A DNA stretch of 64,000 nt from Desulfobacca acetoxidans DSM 11109 (lineage in GTDB: Bacteria > Desulfobacterota > Desulfobaccia > Desulfobaccales > Desulfobaccaceae), in contig NC_015388.1 of the NCBI RefSeq assembly GCF_000195295.1, forward strand, positions 558,001 through 622,000. Direction: 5' to 3'. Positions 3,552-9,052 of this stretch are shown piece by piece (the stretch's first letter is position 1; the number at the start of each line of letters is the position of its first letter). Position numbers and translations under genes: made by a program. Below the pieces are notes generated by a model, which was not told where the DNA came from, searched no databases, and saw only the letters and a list, made by a program, of their open reading frames with translations.

Positions 3552-3581
3552 TTGACAAAAGGCATTGCAATGTCTTAATAT
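3552..3581 (+). promoter_or_regulatory. Probable sigma-70 promoter of the small gene at 3634
   Basis: TTGACA at 3552-3557 and TAATAT at 3576-3581 are separated by 18 bp, about 50 bp before the ribosome site of the next gene. The -35 is a perfect match and the -10 matches 4 of 6. Confidence 0.5.
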
Positions 3582-3633
3582 ATTGCCAACAAATAGGGGG
3601 AGAGGCTTATCTAAGCCCGGAGGCAAACCTTCT

Positions 3634-3903
3634 ATGATACAAAAAACCGTAGAGGATTTAGCTGCAACAGTTTTATCTTTGGACGAGGATGGCTTAGCAA
3701 AGCAATTAAAGCACTACAAAAAAATCATGGAAGATTTTAGCCCAACCCCGGAGTGGGAAAAAGCTGTTATTGCCTTTTTTTTGATCAACGGCGTTCGGGT
3801 CAAAAATAATCTGATGGATGCCCAGTCGCGCAGAAACAACCTGTTTCAATTTTCTCAACCAGACCCGCATCGCCAGCAGACTCGCTTACGAGTGGTGAAA
3901 TAA
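3634..3903 (+). CDS. Small hypothetical protein (89 aa)
   Basis: Unrecognised. The start at 3634 is chosen because GGAGG lies about 9 bases upstream; the frame stays open further 5' but lacks a ribosome site there and would run into the promoter at 3552-3581. The protein (MIQKTVEDLAATVLSLDEDG...) looks mostly helical and soluble, with a central segment KHYKKIMEDFSPTPEWEKAVIAF and a basic, Gln/Arg-rich tail. It has no Cys, signal peptide or membrane segment. It is converging on der. Its own promoter and good ribosome site suggest a real gene; no function is proposed. Confidence 0.6.
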   Translation: MIQKTVEDLAATVLSLDEDGLAKQLKHYKKIMEDFSPTPEWEKAVIAFFLINGVRVKNNLMDAQSRRNNLFQFSQPDPHRQQTRLRVVK

Positions 3904-3935
3904 TCAAACACATTGCAGGCAGGACGCAGTTGAGG

Positions 3936-5285
3936 TTAATCCTTCGATTGGCCGGAGGCGATCCTTGAGCCTCGGCGGTGTTTTTTGCCCTTAAAATGGA
4001 GGCGGATGGGCGCATAGGGGAGACCGAGACGCTCTCGCAATTGATTTATGAGATAACGCCGGTACGAGTCTGGCGTTGCTCCGGGGATATTCGTAAACGC
4101 CACAAAGGTGGGTGGCCGGCTGTCCGGCTGTGTTAGATAGTAAAATTTTACGCTGCGGTGGCGGTATCTCGGCGGTGGGTGAGCGGCTACTATCTGGGCA
4201 AAAATCCGGTTGAGTTCCCCGGTGGCGGCGCGAAATTGGCATTGCCGGTAAATCTCGTCCAGTAGTGGAAAAACCTTGGATACCTGATAGCCGGTGAGCA
4301 CCGAAAGAGGGAGCACCGGGGCATACGATATCAATTGCAAACCCATGTTGAGGCGGTCCAGGGCCGCCTTTTGCGTTTGGGAGTCCTTGCCTACCACATC
4401 CCACTTATTCACTCCGATCAGACAGCCCTTTCCGGCAACCGCAATAAAATTGAGAATCCGCAGGTCTTGTTCGGTTAATCCTTCCTGAGCATCCAGTAGC
4501 AATAATACGACCTCGGCCCGTTGCAGGGCCCGCAAAGCCTGCCAGATCATTCCCCGCTCCAGGTTTTGGTGGATGCGGCTCCGGCGCCGAATACCGGCTG
4601 TGTCAATCAAGACATAAGGACGGTTGTCCCAGATCAAGGGGGCATCGATGGCGTCCCGAGTTGTGCCGGGGGTATCGCTTACTATCAGACGCTCTTCTCC
4701 TAAGACCCGATTAATAAAAGAGGATTTTCCTACATTGGGGCGGCCCAACACTGCCACCCGAATACCTTCGGGAGGCTCGCCGGCGTCTGGTGCAGCGGGA
4801 AGATACCGGACTACGGCATCCAATAGCGAACCCACCCCCAGGCCATGTTGCGCTGAAATGGGAAACAAAGGAGTCAAACCGAAGCGATAAAATTCGGGTA
4901 GGCGCGTTTCTTGTTTAGGACCGTCGATCTTATTGATCACCAACAAAACCGGTTTCCCCGAACGACGCAAATATTGGGCGACTTCCAGGTCATCAGGCTG
5001 GATCTCCTGTCGGCCATCGACCATAAAGAGCACCAGATCGGCTTCCCCGGCCGCTAGTTCCGCCTGCTGCCGCACCCGACTGCTTAAGGCATCTTCGGTA
5101 TCCCCAAACCCGCCGGTGTCAATCAGCAGAAAGGCATGATCCTCCCAAGTGACATCGCCGTAGAGGCGATCCCGAGTAACCCCCGGTTGGTCATCGACCA
5201 AGGCGCGCGATTGTCGGGTAAGCCGATTGAAGAGCGTCGATTTGCCGACGTTCGTACGGCCGATCAGGGCAACAAGGGGTTTCAT
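3936..5285 (-). CDS. der: Ribosome-associated GTPase Der (EngA)
   Basis: Essential double-GTPase needed for 50S ribosomal subunit maturation. Two G domains are visible: the first with GRTNVGKST (G1), DTGGFGD (G3) and NKID (G4), the second with GRPNVGKSS, DTPGTTRD, DTAGIRRR and NKWD. A C-terminal KH-like domain follows (YRHRSVKFYYLTQPDSRPPTF...). The basic tail KGKKHRRGSR is typical. I place the start at MKPLVALIG (5285), the normal family N terminus. An in-frame ATG five codons upstream (5300) is possible, but the AGAGG there abuts it too closely. It lies downstream of the S41 protease pair on the same strand, with a 114-bp gap. Confidence 0.95.
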   Translation of the reverse strand: MKPLVALIGRTNVGKSTLFNRLTRQSRALVDDQPGVTRDRLYGDVTWEDHAFLLIDTGGFGDTEDALSSRVRQQAELAAGEADLVLFMVDGRQEIQPDDLEVAQYLRRSGKPVLLVINKIDGPKQETRLPEFYRFGLTPLFPISAQHGLGVGSLLDAVVRYLPAAPDAGEPPEGIRVAVLGRPNVGKSSFINRVLGEERLIVSDTPGTTRDAIDAPLIWDNRPYVLIDTAGIRRRSRIHQNLERGMIWQALRALQRAEVVLLLLDAQEGLTEQDLRILNFIAVAGKGCLIGVNKWDVVGKDSQTQKAALDRLNMGLQLISYAPVLPLSVLTGYQVSKVFPLLDEIYRQCQFRAATGELNRIFAQIVAAHPPPRYRHRSVKFYYLTQPDSRPPTFVAFTNIPGATPDSYRRYLINQLRERLGLPYAPIRLHFKGKKHRRGSRIASGQSKD

Positions 5286-5399
5286 TAGACAGGGGGTCAT
5301 CCTCTAAACAGAGACAAGCGGCAGGAAAACCGGCCGCTCCCTCCGGAAATCTGGAACGGGTGCGACCCAGGATCGCACCTCCGGTCTGACGTTGGCGAA

Positions 5400-6785
5400 C
5401 TATTTGACTTTTTGCGGCGGGGGAGGTTCGTTATTGGGTTTGCTGGCCGTATCCGCCGTTTTTTTCGGCGGCCCTTGACGCACAACCTGAACCGCCTGGG
5501 CCAATTGGGGGTCTTTCTCCAGCTCCTCCGAGGAAATAGGGACTGTCCAAGGTTTATCAGTGATCCCTTCTCCCTTCATCCGTCGTTGCAGGGCTTCTTG
5601 GCGCAGGTCTTTCACGCTTTTGCCTTCCGGAATCGGCGGCGCCTCCACCACGAGATCCGGTTGGATGCCCTTTTCCTGGATAGAGCGGCCGGACGGGGTA
5701 TAATAATGAGCTGTGGTCAGCCGCAAGGCCGAGCCATCCTCCAACGGAATGATGGTTTGCACGGAACCTTTGCCGAAGCTTTTCGCTCCCACCAGCAGCC
5801 CCCGTTTCTGATCCTGAATAGCCCCGGCAACGATCTCCGAAGCTGAGGCGCTGCCTTCGTTGATGAGCACGACTATCGGGATGCTTTTTTCTAAACCGGT
5901 GTTTTCCTGGTTGGCGTAAAATCGATGCGTCTGGGCCTTGTTGCGGCCTTCGGTGTAAACAATCAGACCGGAGGATAAAAATTCATCAGCTACTTTGACG
6001 GCCTGGTCCAATAAACCGCCCGGGTCATTCCGCAGATCCACTATCAAACCTCGGAGCGGTTTGCATTTCGCCGTCAGATCTTTGATAGCCCGCCGGAGAT
6101 CATGATCAGTTTTATCCTGAAAGTTGGTGATTCGAATATAACCGATGCCGTCTTCAAAGTAGCGCGTCCGGATGCTGCGTATGGGGATGATTTCCCGGAC
6201 CAGGGAATAGTTCTTGAGTTTGCCGAGGTTTTCCCTCATGATACCGAGGGTGACGGTGGAACCCTTGGCGCCTCGAATACGGCGGACCGCCTCCATGAGG
6301 GTCATATTCTTGGTGTTGACCCCGTCGATTTTGACGATGCGGTCGCCAGCCTGCAATCCGGCTTTGTACGCCGGCGTCCCCTCGATAGGTGAGACCACGA
6401 TCAACAGTCCGTCTTTGTGGGTTATTTCAATACCGATGCCGCTAAAGCTGCCCTTGGTCTCGATCTGCAGCTCTTTGAATTCCTCCGGAGCCATGAAGGA
6501 GGAATGGGAATCCAAACTGCTTACCATCCCTTTTATGGCACCATAGATGAGTTTCTTGGTATCTTTGGCTTCTACATAATTATCTTCAATGATTCCCAAG
6601 GCTTCAGCGAATACTGATAATTGCTCGCGGGTATCTTCGGACAACGACCACGCGGGTTTTGCCTGGACCAACAGGAGCCACGCCACTGCTAAGAGGAGAA
6701 AACCCCAAGCTCTGAACGTATCCGCCACTGCCCGGCCTGCGGTCGTATTTTTCAGGCGCCTTGAGGAAATGGAGAAAATAGACAA
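5400..6785 (-). CDS. ctpA: C-terminal processing peptidase, S41 family (active)
   Basis: Periplasmic serine protease that trims C termini or degrades misassembled envelope proteins. Order: hydrophobic signal/anchor (WGFLLLAVAWLLLVQ), helical N-terminal region, PDZ domain (GIGIEITHKDGLLIVVSPIE...AGDRIVKIDG) and the S41 core. The Ser/Lys dyad is intact: EGSASASE gives Ser314 and SFGKGSVQT gives Lys339 with Gln343 (numbers from the start used here). The C terminus is Pro-rich. No ATG is available. TTG at 6785 has GAGGA nine bases upstream and is preferred. TTG at 6827, overlapping the previous stop, lacks a ribosome site. It is the second gene of a tandem pair with the degenerate paralogue, probably co-transcribed. 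Confidence 0.9.
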   Translation of the reverse strand: MSIFSISSRRLKNTTAGRAVADTFRAWGFLLLAVAWLLLVQAKPAWSLSEDTREQLSVFAEALGIIEDNYVEAKDTKKLIYGAIKGMVSSLDSHSSFMAPEEFKELQIETKGSFSGIGIEITHKDGLLIVVSPIEGTPAYKAGLQAGDRIVKIDGVNTKNMTLMEAVRRIRGAKGSTVTLGIMRENLGKLKNYSLVREIIPIRSIRTRYFEDGIGYIRITNFQDKTDHDLRRAIKDLTAKCKPLRGLIVDLRNDPGGLLDQAVKVADEFLSSGLIVYTEGRNKAQTHRFYANQENTGLEKSIPIVVLINEGSASASEIVAGAIQDQKRGLLVGAKSFGKGSVQTIIPLEDGSALRLTTAHYYTPSGRSIQEKGIQPDLVVEAPPIPEGKSVKDLRQEALQRRMKGEGITDKPWTVPISSEELEKDPQLAQAVQVVRQGPPKKTADTASKPNNEPPPPQKVK

Positions 6786-6823
6786 TTGATTCTGTCCTCT
6801 TGTTTGATGGTTGCGGAGGAGCC

Positions 6824-8215
6824 TCAAGCTTGGAAGAGGGAATGCTCCTGGTCTCCCAAGATGGAGATCTTAGTAATTTCCTGTTCTTCGGAGTGGAAGC
6901 AGGCTGCCTGATTTTTCTTAAGCGAGCGTTCACCAGGGGACTGAATGGCGCGTCCCGAACCCCAGTTTTTCAATTGAAAGAGGGCCTGATGGACTAAAGG
7001 ATCCTGCATGATCTCATGCACATCAGGTAGGTTTCTGGGTTTTTCCTGATCCTTGGAGTCTTCCCGGACCGGTTGCTCTTCCGGGTCTTTCTTAGGTCCC
7101 GGCAGGTCGGGTTCCAAACCGCGTCCCTGTATGAGAAGGTCTTTAGGCGTATAGCAAAACGCCACGTTGATCACCAGGGCGGAGCCATCCTTCAACGGAA
7201 AGGTCTGAACAACACCGCATTCTCCGAAGGTTTTATACCCTAAAAGCAAAGCGCCCCATTGCGCCTGTAAGGCACCGGTAACAACTTCCGCCGCCTGGGC
7301 GGTGCCGTGGTCGACCAGAATAACCAATGGCAGTTTGTTCTTGAGGACCAGGCATTCTTTCAAACCTTTCACTATCTGTTTCTGCTCGCTATGGCGGCCC
7401 TTAACAATATAAATGACATCATTACCCAGAAATGACGAGGCAATGCGTCTGGCATCATCCGGGCGGCCACCGGCAGTATTGCGCAGATCCAGGATGAGGC
7501 CTTTTTTGGGAGAGGCATTGGCTTGTATCGAGCGCAATATCTGCTGTAACTCTGCGGCAGCGCCCTCTTGAGGAGATCTGAGCCGTAGGTAGTGGTAACC
7601 CTCTTCTAACTGATAATGTGCTACCAATGGCACCGCCAGCTTCTCCAACGTCAGCTCAAGATCTAGTGGTTTAACAAAACCATTGCGGATAAGTTGCAGC
7701 TTAACTTTTGTGCCCGGCGGTCCCTGCAGCTTTTTGACGGCCTCCAATGGAGTTAGGTTGCGGGTGGTTTGGTTGTTGATTTTCAGGATGTGATCGCCCG
7801 CTTTGATGCCAGTTCGCCAGGCCGGTCCGCCTTCTATCGGAGACACCACTGTCAGGATGTTATCTTTGATGGACAGCTCCATCCCAGCACTGGCTTCCGG
7901 CTGTTTCACGCCGGCTTGTATTTCCTGATATTCCGAAGGCGATAGAAAAGAGGAATTGGCATCCAAAGAAGACACCATGCCGCGAATAGCCCCGTAAATC
8001 AGATCGCGATCCTGTTTTTCGGTGACATACTTCTGGTCTATCTCATACAAGGCCTCCACCAGCAGGCGCAGTTGGGCATAAGCTTCGGAAGATGTCGCCG
8101 CAGCCGGAGGACCGCTCCCGCAACAGAGAACACCGAAGAAAAAGAGAGAAACAATGAAAACCCACATGCTTCGTGTAGAGGGTCTGGTGAGATAGCGGTA
8201 TCTGTTTGTCTTCAT
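6824..8215 (-). CDS. S41-family protease homologue lacking the catalytic dyad (predicted pseudoenzyme)
   Basis: Full-length paralogue (463 aa) of the CtpA encoded just downstream. Order: signal peptide (hydrophobic residues about 17-33), helical region, PDZ domain (about 105-190; MELSIKDNILTVVSPIEGGP, AGDHILKIN) and S41 fold (about 200-370). Aligning LVILVDHGTAQAAEVVTGAL with the active copy's VVLINEGSASASEIVAGAI puts Gln307 at the nucleophile Ser. KTFGECGVVQT against KSFGKGSVQT puts Glu332 at the catalytic Lys. The fold-defining text (ILDLRNTAGG, PLKDGSALV, YTPKD) remains, so this is not a decaying pseudogene: the frame is open and substitutions are localised. By inference it is a chaperone, adaptor or substrate-binding partner of the active protease. 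Confidence 0.88.
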   Translation of the reverse strand: MKTNRYRYLTRPSTRSMWVFIVSLFFFGVLCCGSGPPAAATSSEAYAQLRLLVEALYEIDQKYVTEKQDRDLIYGAIRGMVSSLDANSSFLSPSEYQEIQAGVKQPEASAGMELSIKDNILTVVSPIEGGPAWRTGIKAGDHILKINNQTTRNLTPLEAVKKLQGPPGTKVKLQLIRNGFVKPLDLELTLEKLAVPLVAHYQLEEGYHYLRLRSPQEGAAAELQQILRSIQANASPKKGLILDLRNTAGGRPDDARRIASSFLGNDVIYIVKGRHSEQKQIVKGLKECLVLKNKLPLVILVDHGTAQAAEVVTGALQAQWGALLLGYKTFGECGVVQTFPLKDGSALVINVAFCYTPKDLLIQGRGLEPDLPGPKKDPEEQPVREDSKDQEKPRNLPDVHEIMQDPLVHQALFQLKNWGSGRAIQSPGERSLKKNQAACFHSEEQEITKISILGDQEHSLFQA

Positions 8216-8493
8216 CTTTGGTAAAATAAGGTCGACTTCCTAAGGTTTTTGGCTAAGGGTCCAGAAATCCCCGGTCTGCCAGGCGATTAACATCAGTCCC
8301 GGAAGGCTCCTCGAGAGTTTGGGCGTCGCTAGCTTTTCTCTTGCCCTTTGACTGCCATAACTCATTTTTAAGCGCTGACGGGAAACTGAATTTTACAGGT
8401 GGGCTAGCCTCGGGCAAATTATTCCTTCCCTTGCTATTTGGTAGCATAATCAGAGCGGTCGCGCAAGTGGCAATTCTGGTTATATGAAAACAG

Positions 8494-8595
8494 TGCTCTT
8501 AAAGACGGCGGGCGCGGCCCGCCCTATGAGTAAATTGCCAATAAATTATCGATAATGGGATGGGGCGGCCCATGGTCGCCGTTTATGTTTAATAT
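8494..8595. repeat. Dispersed intergenic repeat, family 1, copy 1
   Basis: About 100 bp beginning TGCTCTTAAAGACGGCGGGC and ending near ATGTTTAATAT. It carries the palindromic core GGCGGGCGCGGCCCGCC and a second inverted segment (GGGCGGCCCATGGTCGCC). It matches copies at 39035-39137 and 39242-39344 with scattered substitutions. Function unknown; the palindromes resemble REP/BIME-type elements. Confidence 0.8.
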
Positions 8596-8695
8596 GATTG
8601 ATGAGAAAAAATTTGTATGAAAGAAGGTGGTGCCGGCTTTCCAGCCCGCATACCCATGCACAGACCAAGGAGGCCTATGCCACCAATCATTCTTG

Positions 8696-8725
8696 CATGC
8701 TTCGTTGTGATCACCAGAACATGCC
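8696..8725. repeat. Dispersed intergenic repeat, family 2, copy 1
   Basis: The 30-bp core starting CATGCTTCGTTG and ending ATGCC matches 31531-31560 with two mismatches. It is related to the element at 62683-62757. Confidence 0.65.
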
Positions 8726-8827
8726 AACTTATTTATCAATCCCCCAAGAACCCTCCGGTCTGCTTCACAACTCAATTGGGCCTCGATTGCTTTCCTGGTC
8801 CTTCCTGTCTAAGAGGTGAAAGAGCCG

Positions 8828-8853
8828 TTGCTTTTTTTTTCCTATGGTATAAA
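8828..8853 (+). promoter_or_regulatory. Possible extended -10 promoter for gatC-gatA
   Basis: TATAAA at 8848-8853 is preceded by TGG (extended -10 type). A TTGCTT at 8828 is only 14 bp upstream, so the -35 is weak. It lies about 200 bp before the gatC start. Confidence 0.3.
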
Positions 8854-9052
8854 TTCTTCACGATACAAATTCTAGACGCAACTATATGGTATCGGGAAAG
8901 CTTCCCCGGCCTGTTTTATAGAGATCATGGACGTTTTTGGCGGCATTGAGCTGGCGGTGGAAGGAAACCGACAGGTTGACCGCAAGAACATCGTACCGTG
9001 GCTGTCTAGTCTTTTTCGATTACAATCTCCTGAAGCACGCGAGGATTTTGGC

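Follow-up and report, generated by a model that had tools for sequence, protein, structure and literature searches.

Results

The window analysed here is a 64,000-nucleotide stretch of the Desulfobacca acetoxidans genome, and two genes for S41-family proteins lie in tandem on its minus strand. The upstream gene, at 6824–8215, encodes P0001, a 463-residue S41/PDZ protein that was identified as a dead copy of CtpA (pseudo-CtpA) from its open reading frame, family matches, and alignments. The downstream gene, at 5400–6827, encodes the active CtpA, P0002, with Ser328 and Lys353. Its TTG start overlaps the stop codon of P0001; alternatively, read by eye, it starts at a GTG at 6728. P0001 matched Peptidase_S41 (PF03572) with 107 bits against a cut-off of 24. 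Three PDZ families also scored above their cut-offs, and the PDZ domain sits between the N-terminal helices and the core. In the curated NCBI family TIGR00225 (prc), P0001 scored 196.2, below the cut-off of 218.6, and P0002 scored 342.8. The whole genome (3,282,536 bases) contained only two Peptidase_S41 matches, P0001 and P0002.

Ser302 of Pseudomonas aeruginosa CtpA is the residue altered in the S302A entry 7rqh. P0001 aligned with P. aeruginosa CtpA without gaps around the active site, with Gln307 (codon at 7295–7297, minus strand) in the column of Ser302 and Glu332 (codon at 7220–7222, minus strand) in the column of Lys327. The alignment with P0002 gave the same two columns, in which Ser328 and Lys353 stood opposite Gln307 and Glu332. 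By descent P0001 is an S41-fold protein, but by the residues of the dyad that defines the active CTP family it is to be placed outside that family. A previous reading of this DNA, made from the sequence only, had described a tandem S41 pair whose upstream copy has an intact frame, keeps the PDZ domain and S41 fold, and has lost the nucleophile Ser and the general-base Lys. The 463-residue frame, the family matches, and the comparison with Ser328 and Lys353 of CtpA bore out this description, and the alignment with P. aeruginosa CtpA confirmed the two columns that it had proposed to check against known structures.

The regions of P0001 were named after the description of P. aeruginosa CtpA (N-terminal dimerisation region (NDR), S10 strand, and helix H6) in the available part of PMC8764530, and their borders were set in this analysis. 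The NDR comprises residues 45–88 (7952–8083, minus strand), as assigned from the published region, the model, and a conservation equal to that of active copies. The PDZ domain, assigned by family match and alignment, covers residues 107–190 (7646–7897, minus strand) and is without the hinge Phe (residue 107), the first loop Gly, and the Arg, which is replaced by Gln164. The C-terminal helix at residues 404–418 (6962–7006, minus strand) is the counterpart of helix H6 in the CDR of P. aeruginosa CtpA. In the AlphaFold model, the N-terminal helices span residues 41–63 and 67–84, and the C-terminal helix spans residues 406–416. A signal peptide was called by eye, and the model has a helix at residues 14–33. 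The product is presumably periplasmic.

To date, in vivo mutants of P. aeruginosa CtpA have been described, in the accessible text of PMC11021448, in which S302A and K327A abolish activity, H84A gives a moderate drop, and Q331A has a minor effect. We aligned 27 dead copies from the order Desulfobaccales with 23 active partners and 18 CtpA proteins from other families of the phylum. In the dead copies, the nucleophile Ser was replaced by Arg in 26 and by Gln only in D. acetoxidans. The column of the general-base Lys contained Leu (20), Asp (4), Asn (2), or Glu (1), and that of the active-site His (His84 in P. aeruginosa) contained Asp (20), Asn (4), Thr (2), or Ser (1). The active-site Gln (Gln331 in P. 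aeruginosa) was absent from all 27. In the NDPGG motif of the oxyanion loop, the Pro was replaced by Ala in every dead copy, and the Gly that follows it was Arg in 19 and Gly in 6. The hinge Phe (Phe105 in Helicobacter pylori) was missing from 27/27; Gln replaced the PDZ Arg (Arg162 in H. pylori) in 25, and the other 2 had the Arg. In the GIGI loop of the PDZ domain, the first Gly was absent and the second was kept in all dead copies; the equivalent of H. pylori Glu96 was kept in 12. All these positions were intact in the 23 active partners and the 18 CtpA proteins of the phylum, except for one Asp in place of Glu96. Four active partners outside the alignment also kept Ser and Lys, so that the dyad is present in 27/27 active partners. 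The aligned residues show that every dead copy has lost the four catalytic residues together with the Pro of the oxyanion loop and the Phe of the hinge, and that 25/27 have lost the PDZ Arg.

Twenty-nine genomes of the order were sampled, and a class-level search gave the same 29. The dead gene and the active ctpA gene were found together in 27 genomes, and neither was found in the other two. The genomes lacking any Peptidase_S41 match, active or dead, were G013 (81% complete) and G022 (94% complete). Among the 27 genomes carrying the dead gene, which belong to 10 genus groups, there was no frame break; three stops that had been counted in dead copies (G023, G025, and G006) came from extended search matches, and the reading frames at these places have 448, 459, and 447 residues. 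When 297 genomes sampled from the phylum were scored, with at most six candidates in each, scores above 600 bits were obtained only in 12 genomes, all of this order, and the next best score was 385.5. From the 285 genomes outside the order, 18 proteins were read.

Selection was estimated by the Nei-Gojobori method. The dN/dS of the dead copies ranged from 0.108 to 0.372 in 22 close pairs, and that of the active partners from 0.078 to 0.293 in the 14 comparable pairs; the pairs overlap and are not independent. In the comparable pairs, dN was higher in the dead copy in 14/14. The dead gene thus changes faster than its partner, yet it is clearly under purifying selection. The dead-copy alignment contained 68 invariant columns. 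Relaxed selection on the dead copy was considered and rejected, as its dN/dS was above that of the active partner in nine pairs and below it in five. A pseudogene or a sequencing error was likewise rejected, as 27 orthologues without a frame break share the same kind of losses. On this evidence, the P0001 family is a predicted pseudoprotease family, in which the fold is kept and the catalytic residues are lost under purifying selection.

These results bear on several statements of the sequence-only reading. It had named Gln307 and Glu332 as the replacements; this holds for P0001, but Gln307 is peculiar to this genome, and 26/27 orthologues have Arg. Its statement that the rest of the protein is well preserved was too generous, since the His, the Gln, the oxyanion Pro, the hinge Phe, the PDZ Arg, and the first GIGI Gly are also gone. 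Its proposal that selection keeps a catalytically dead CtpA is strongly supported by the 27 intact genes, the active partner in each of these genomes, and the dN/dS test that it had suggested, with all values in the purifying range. It had recommended looking for the pair in related genomes, where both genes were found in 27/29 and stood side by side in 24/27; decay of the gene in relatives, which it had named as evidence against itself, was looked for and was absent from the 27 genomes with the gene. It had also named another Ser/Lys pair in the active site as contrary evidence. No invariant Ser or Lys was present between residues 277 and 362 of the 27 orthologues, and no candidate replacement pair was evident among the conserved residues nearby. 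The nearest nearly invariant Lys is K328, which is Lys in active copies too.

Two Cys residues near the dead site were also noted. The codons of Cys333 and Cys354 lie within 7154–7219; the two residues bracket a hairpin predicted there and would be opposite each other by their sequence offset. Both are present in 21/27 orthologues and one is missing in 6/27. A covarying disulfide was ruled out, because three orthologues lack one Cys and three different ones lack the other.

Conservation by region was compared as mean column identity in the 23 genomes with both sequences. The regions for dimerisation were conserved to the same extent in dead and active copies: 0.62 and 0.62 in the NDR, 0.61 and 0.62 at residues 361–376, and 0.61 and 0.61 in the C-terminal helix. 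The other values, dead versus active, were 0.50 versus 0.85 at residues 89–106, 0.63 versus 0.76 in the PDZ domain, 0.68 versus 0.84 at residues 297–330, and 0.66 versus 0.91 at residues 331–360. Residues 196–296 were the least conserved region of the dead copies (0.45 versus 0.69). The drop in conservation from active to dead copies was 0.003 over 75 interface columns versus 0.218 over 289 others (Mann-Whitney p 1.2e-6, with columns that are not independent), and a contrast as large arose in 1/363 circular shifts. Within classes matched for conservation in the active copies, the contrast held in 3/4 and was smaller. Part of the regional contrast is baseline conservation. In the active copies of the order, four columns differed from CtpA of the phylum, and none of these changes was in the NDR. 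The column identities and dN/dS values show that purifying selection maintains the predicted fold as well as the NDR and the C-terminal helix.

The linker that precedes the C-terminal helix has 18–32 residues in the dead copies versus 43–46 in 22/23 active copies (the other row is truncated). In CtpA, this linker holds the motile (trans-interacting) loop. It has 17–103 residues in the 18 phylum CtpA proteins, so its length alone cannot decide on the motile loop. Because of the shorter linker, the place of the dead copy in a hexamer is unsure.

AlphaFold models were built for the dead copy from 27 sequences (pLDDT 77.8) and for the active partner from 23 sequences (pLDDT 65.6). The dead model matched the resting structures with Z scores of 36.9 (H. 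pylori F105R, 9ku0), 29.2 (all-resting 9ksp), 32.1 (CtpB, 4c2e), and 32.7 (4c2h), versus 22.4, 22.1, and 22.4 for active CtpB (4c2c, 4c2g, and 4c2f). The active-partner model matched active CtpB with 26.4 (4c2g), 26.0 (4c2c), and 25.9 (4c2f), versus 19.9 (4c2e), 20.2 (4c2h), 22.8 (9ku0), and 20.6 (9ksp) for the resting forms. In the P. aeruginosa complex, the dead model picked B chains and the active-partner model picked A chains. Here we take 4c2h for a resting form and chain A for the activated one in this complex. The two models were not separated by 7rpq_B, a resting chain from a P. aeruginosa crystal in which 258 residues are ordered (25.0 for the dead and 23.2 for the active one). The predicted dead model thus resembles resting CTPs and the predicted active-partner model resembles active ones, which is supporting and, since the alignments behind the models are shallow, not decisive.

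The origin of the dead copy was investigated with trees. A quick 99-row tree separated the dead copies and the order's active copies into two clades, each with an SH-aLRT of 100. The dead clade lay outside the active copies and phylum CtpA in this tree, with a long stem branch and long-branch warnings. In a tree of 74 rows, uniting the dead copies with the order's active copies improved on the free search by 2.86 log units (p-AU 0.603), which allows a local tandem duplication and rapid change after it. Uniting the active copies with phylum CtpA was 13.49 worse and was not rejected (p-AU 0.245). We infer that the P0001 family descended from a duplicate of ctpA that arose in tandem at the order's base; the trees would also allow an earlier event.

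Finally, the gene order was examined. In 24 of the 27 genomes, the dead and the active gene were adjacent on the same strand, with the dead copy upstream. The exceptions were G001, with two genes between the copies, and G003 and G026, with the copies on different contigs. The genes in between in G001 (L097:1663–3190) are a methyltransferase gene and an MtrA-like gene. Nineteen loci were read more widely, and the der and transketolase clusters in them were named from one member per family (Pfam). In 15/19, the gene directly downstream of the pair belonged to the der family; in the window, this conserved neighbour is der (EngA-type GTPase) at 3936–5300 on the minus strand. The two transketolase halves were found upstream of the pair in 13 and 12 of the 19 loci and are absent from this place in the D. 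acetoxidans window. Here, a gap at 8216–8926 separates P0001 from a divergent gatC-like open reading frame (named by eye). These approximately 700 bases are without an evident gene, apart from one 110-residue frame on the opposite strand (8617–8949), and hold two minus-strand promoter-like matches; in 12/19 loci of the order, both transketolase halves occupy this place. Promoter-like matches were not in excess in the scanned region (4 versus 3.5 in shuffles). Terminator-like matches in 3800–9000 numbered 16 versus 6.7 in shuffles (sd 2.4), and none on the minus strand fell at the P0001/P0002 junction. The TTGA overlap is a doubtful sign of translational coupling of the two genes, because the TTG start is itself doubtful and the junctions differ among relatives. 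A short frame of about 83–112 residues near a creatininase-family gene was seen in 13/19 loci of the order (cluster F3, L033–L050), and the frame at 3565–3903 of the window resembles it by eye.

Discussion

It has been described, in the accessible literature on P. aeruginosa CtpA, that binding of LbcA activates only one CtpA per dimer. The available text of PMC12749690 describes H. pylori CtpA as a hexamer in which each N-dimer contains a single active subunit. We give a nearly even chance to the reading that pseudo-CtpA serves as a dedicated resting subunit in an asymmetric oligomer with active CtpA. The dead protein would pair with active CtpA through its N-terminal helices and would occupy the seat of the dimer that must stay at rest. 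The cutting and resting roles, which belong to one homo-oligomer elsewhere, would be divided between two genes here, so that the product of the active gene would always be the cutting half. The dead half would determine the assembly, give the gate its shape, or serve as a binding site for an adaptor. A dedicated resting subunit would be expected to look as P0001 does, because the dimerisation parts are kept, catalysis and the switch are lost, and the active sister is present in 27/27 genomes. Bacillus subtilis CtpB, for which activation of both subunits is described, counts against the resting-seat reading, and so does the fact that none of the changes peculiar to the order's active copies is in the NDR.

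The sequence-only reading had suggested a regulatory or a substrate-presenting partner of the active CtpA. A regulatory partner is plausible and would fit the retained dimerisation regions. A substrate-presenting role is disfavoured, because every dead copy is without the first PDZ-loop Gly and the hinge Phe, and 25/27 are without the PDZ Arg. In H. pylori CtpA, according to the part of PMC12749690 available, the hinge Phe and PDZ Arg are the residues that handle the C-terminal end of the substrate. The same text reports that F105R gives a hexamer with every protomer resting and that R162A and R162E lose activity. Both residues are thus required for activation in H. pylori CtpA.

Other roles of the dead copy were weighed against that of a dedicated resting subunit. 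The retained dimerisation regions are not specific to a heteromer, because homodimers of the dead protein would conserve them just as well. The dead protein could be a separate homo-oligomeric scaffold or decoy, which binds substrates, an adaptor, or peptidoglycan alone without joining CtpA. A surface of its own is suggested by the shorter C-terminal linker and by residues that never vary among the 27 dead copies but differ from those of the active copies (e.g., D302, T305, R152, L190, and G284). However, the substrate-handling residues of the PDZ domain are lost, and the gene co-occurs with ctpA and lies next to it, and we consider a scaffold rather unlikely. The dimerisation regions, the gene pairing, and the resting-state model are also consistent with a heteromeric brake, in which the dead subunit would join CtpA oligomers, lower their activity by dominant-negative titration, and limit periplasmic proteolysis; we think this unlikely.

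The old cleft may instead have gained a ligand-binding or chemical role, as in the S41-derived modules of IRBP, with the near-invariant Arg307 and Cys333/Cys354 as the new site. The Arg is fixed in 26/27 without drift, both Cys residues are present in 21/27, and the IRBP modules match the dead model with Z 15.3–17.6. On the other hand, the D. acetoxidans copy has Gln and not Arg, one Cys is missing in 6/27, and residues 196–296 are the least conserved region (0.45 versus 0.69 in active copies), which makes this role quite improbable in our estimate. Finally, the higher dN in 14/14 comparable pairs, the many lost motif residues, and the long stem branch might indicate a functionless relic of the duplication in decay. 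With no frame break in 27 genomes of 10 genus groups, a dN/dS of 0.108–0.372, and 68 invariant columns, we regard a relic as highly implausible.

A dedicated resting subunit was compared with known systems. P. aeruginosa CtpA (7rpq and 8sxe; LbcA-activated) has the same order of NDR, PDZ, cap/core, and CDR, and the dead model matches 8sxe_B with Z 36.8 over 343 residues at 34% identity. One active gene product occupies both seats there, whereas the Desulfobaccales have a second, dead product. In the text available from PMC8764530, P. aeruginosa CtpA controls cell-wall hydrolases. H. pylori CtpA (9jr1 and 9ku0) includes the best match of the dead model, the all-resting F105R mutant 9ku0 (Z 36.9), but it is described in the available text of PMC12749690 as a homo-oligomer with Ser300/Lys325, Phe105, and Arg162. 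B. subtilis CtpB (4c2c/4c2e) shares the S41/PDZ fold and N-terminal dimerisation, and its resting form matches the dead model with Z 32.1; it differs in being an active enzyme. The modules of IRBP/RBP3 (7jti, 4lur, and 1j7x) have a similar S41-type fold, within the Z range given above. IRBP/RBP3 is an animal protein and a non-proteolytic retinoid carrier, and we know of no CtpA partner for it. Dead paralogues that work in a complex with an active sister include ClpR with ClpP. Another is the prozyme of Trypanosoma brucei with AdoMetDC, as described in the accessible part of PMC5201418. Both have unrelated folds, and the complex is proven there, whereas it is proposed for pseudo-CtpA and CtpA.

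Among the matches listed in the open full-text literature, as far as their text is accessible, there was no pseudoprotease partner in the C-terminal processing protease family. To our knowledge, pseudo-CtpA would be the first such partner in this family. The listed papers on D. acetoxidans and proteases, judged by titles, contained nothing on this gene. The question of one active subunit is hard to study in homo-oligomers because the same polypeptide fills both seats. If the natural pair encodes cutting and resting subunits separately, each seat could be changed alone, and the question would become directly testable.

A second dead CtpA was found in Terriglobia (Acidobacteriota). From a scan of named genomes we took the best 80 of 335 relatives, which comprised 24 of the order's dead family, 28 from Terriglobia, and 28 with Ser and Lys. 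Among these 80, 27/28 Terriglobia proteins were without both the Ser, replaced by Gly, and the Lys; the hinge Phe was Lys in 23 and Arg in 2 of the 28, the PDZ Arg and the His were absent in 28/28, and the Gln was kept in 26/28. Fifteen of the 28 proteins were placed in the 99-row tree and formed their own clade. The Terriglobia loci (L125–L127, L131–L135, L137–L139, L141, L142, L144–L148, L150–L152, and L154–L160), at most about 9 kb each, contained one S41 frame apiece, and 10/10 genomes searched had an S41 frame of 534–566 residues with Ser and Lys elsewhere. Still among the best 80 of 335, one gene cluster was found in 22/28 Terriglobia loci, as the very next downstream frame in 17, and its one sampled member (Pfam) was a class A penicillin-binding protein. 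It is possible, although on balance we doubt it, that asymmetric CTP activation is hard-wired in the Desulfobaccales genome, as an obligate hetero-oligomeric CtpA whose resting seat is assigned to a pseudoprotease without the catalytic residues and the activation switch, and that the separately derived dead CtpA of Terriglobia represents a second, independent way of arriving at a non-cutting subunit. In the same set of the best 80 of 335 relatives, a PASTA-type cluster was also present in 8/28 Terriglobia loci. In the Terriglobia locus L155 (plus-strand frame from 3881), the nucleophile Ser is kept and Glu replaces the Lys, which is perhaps an intermediate or a separate case.
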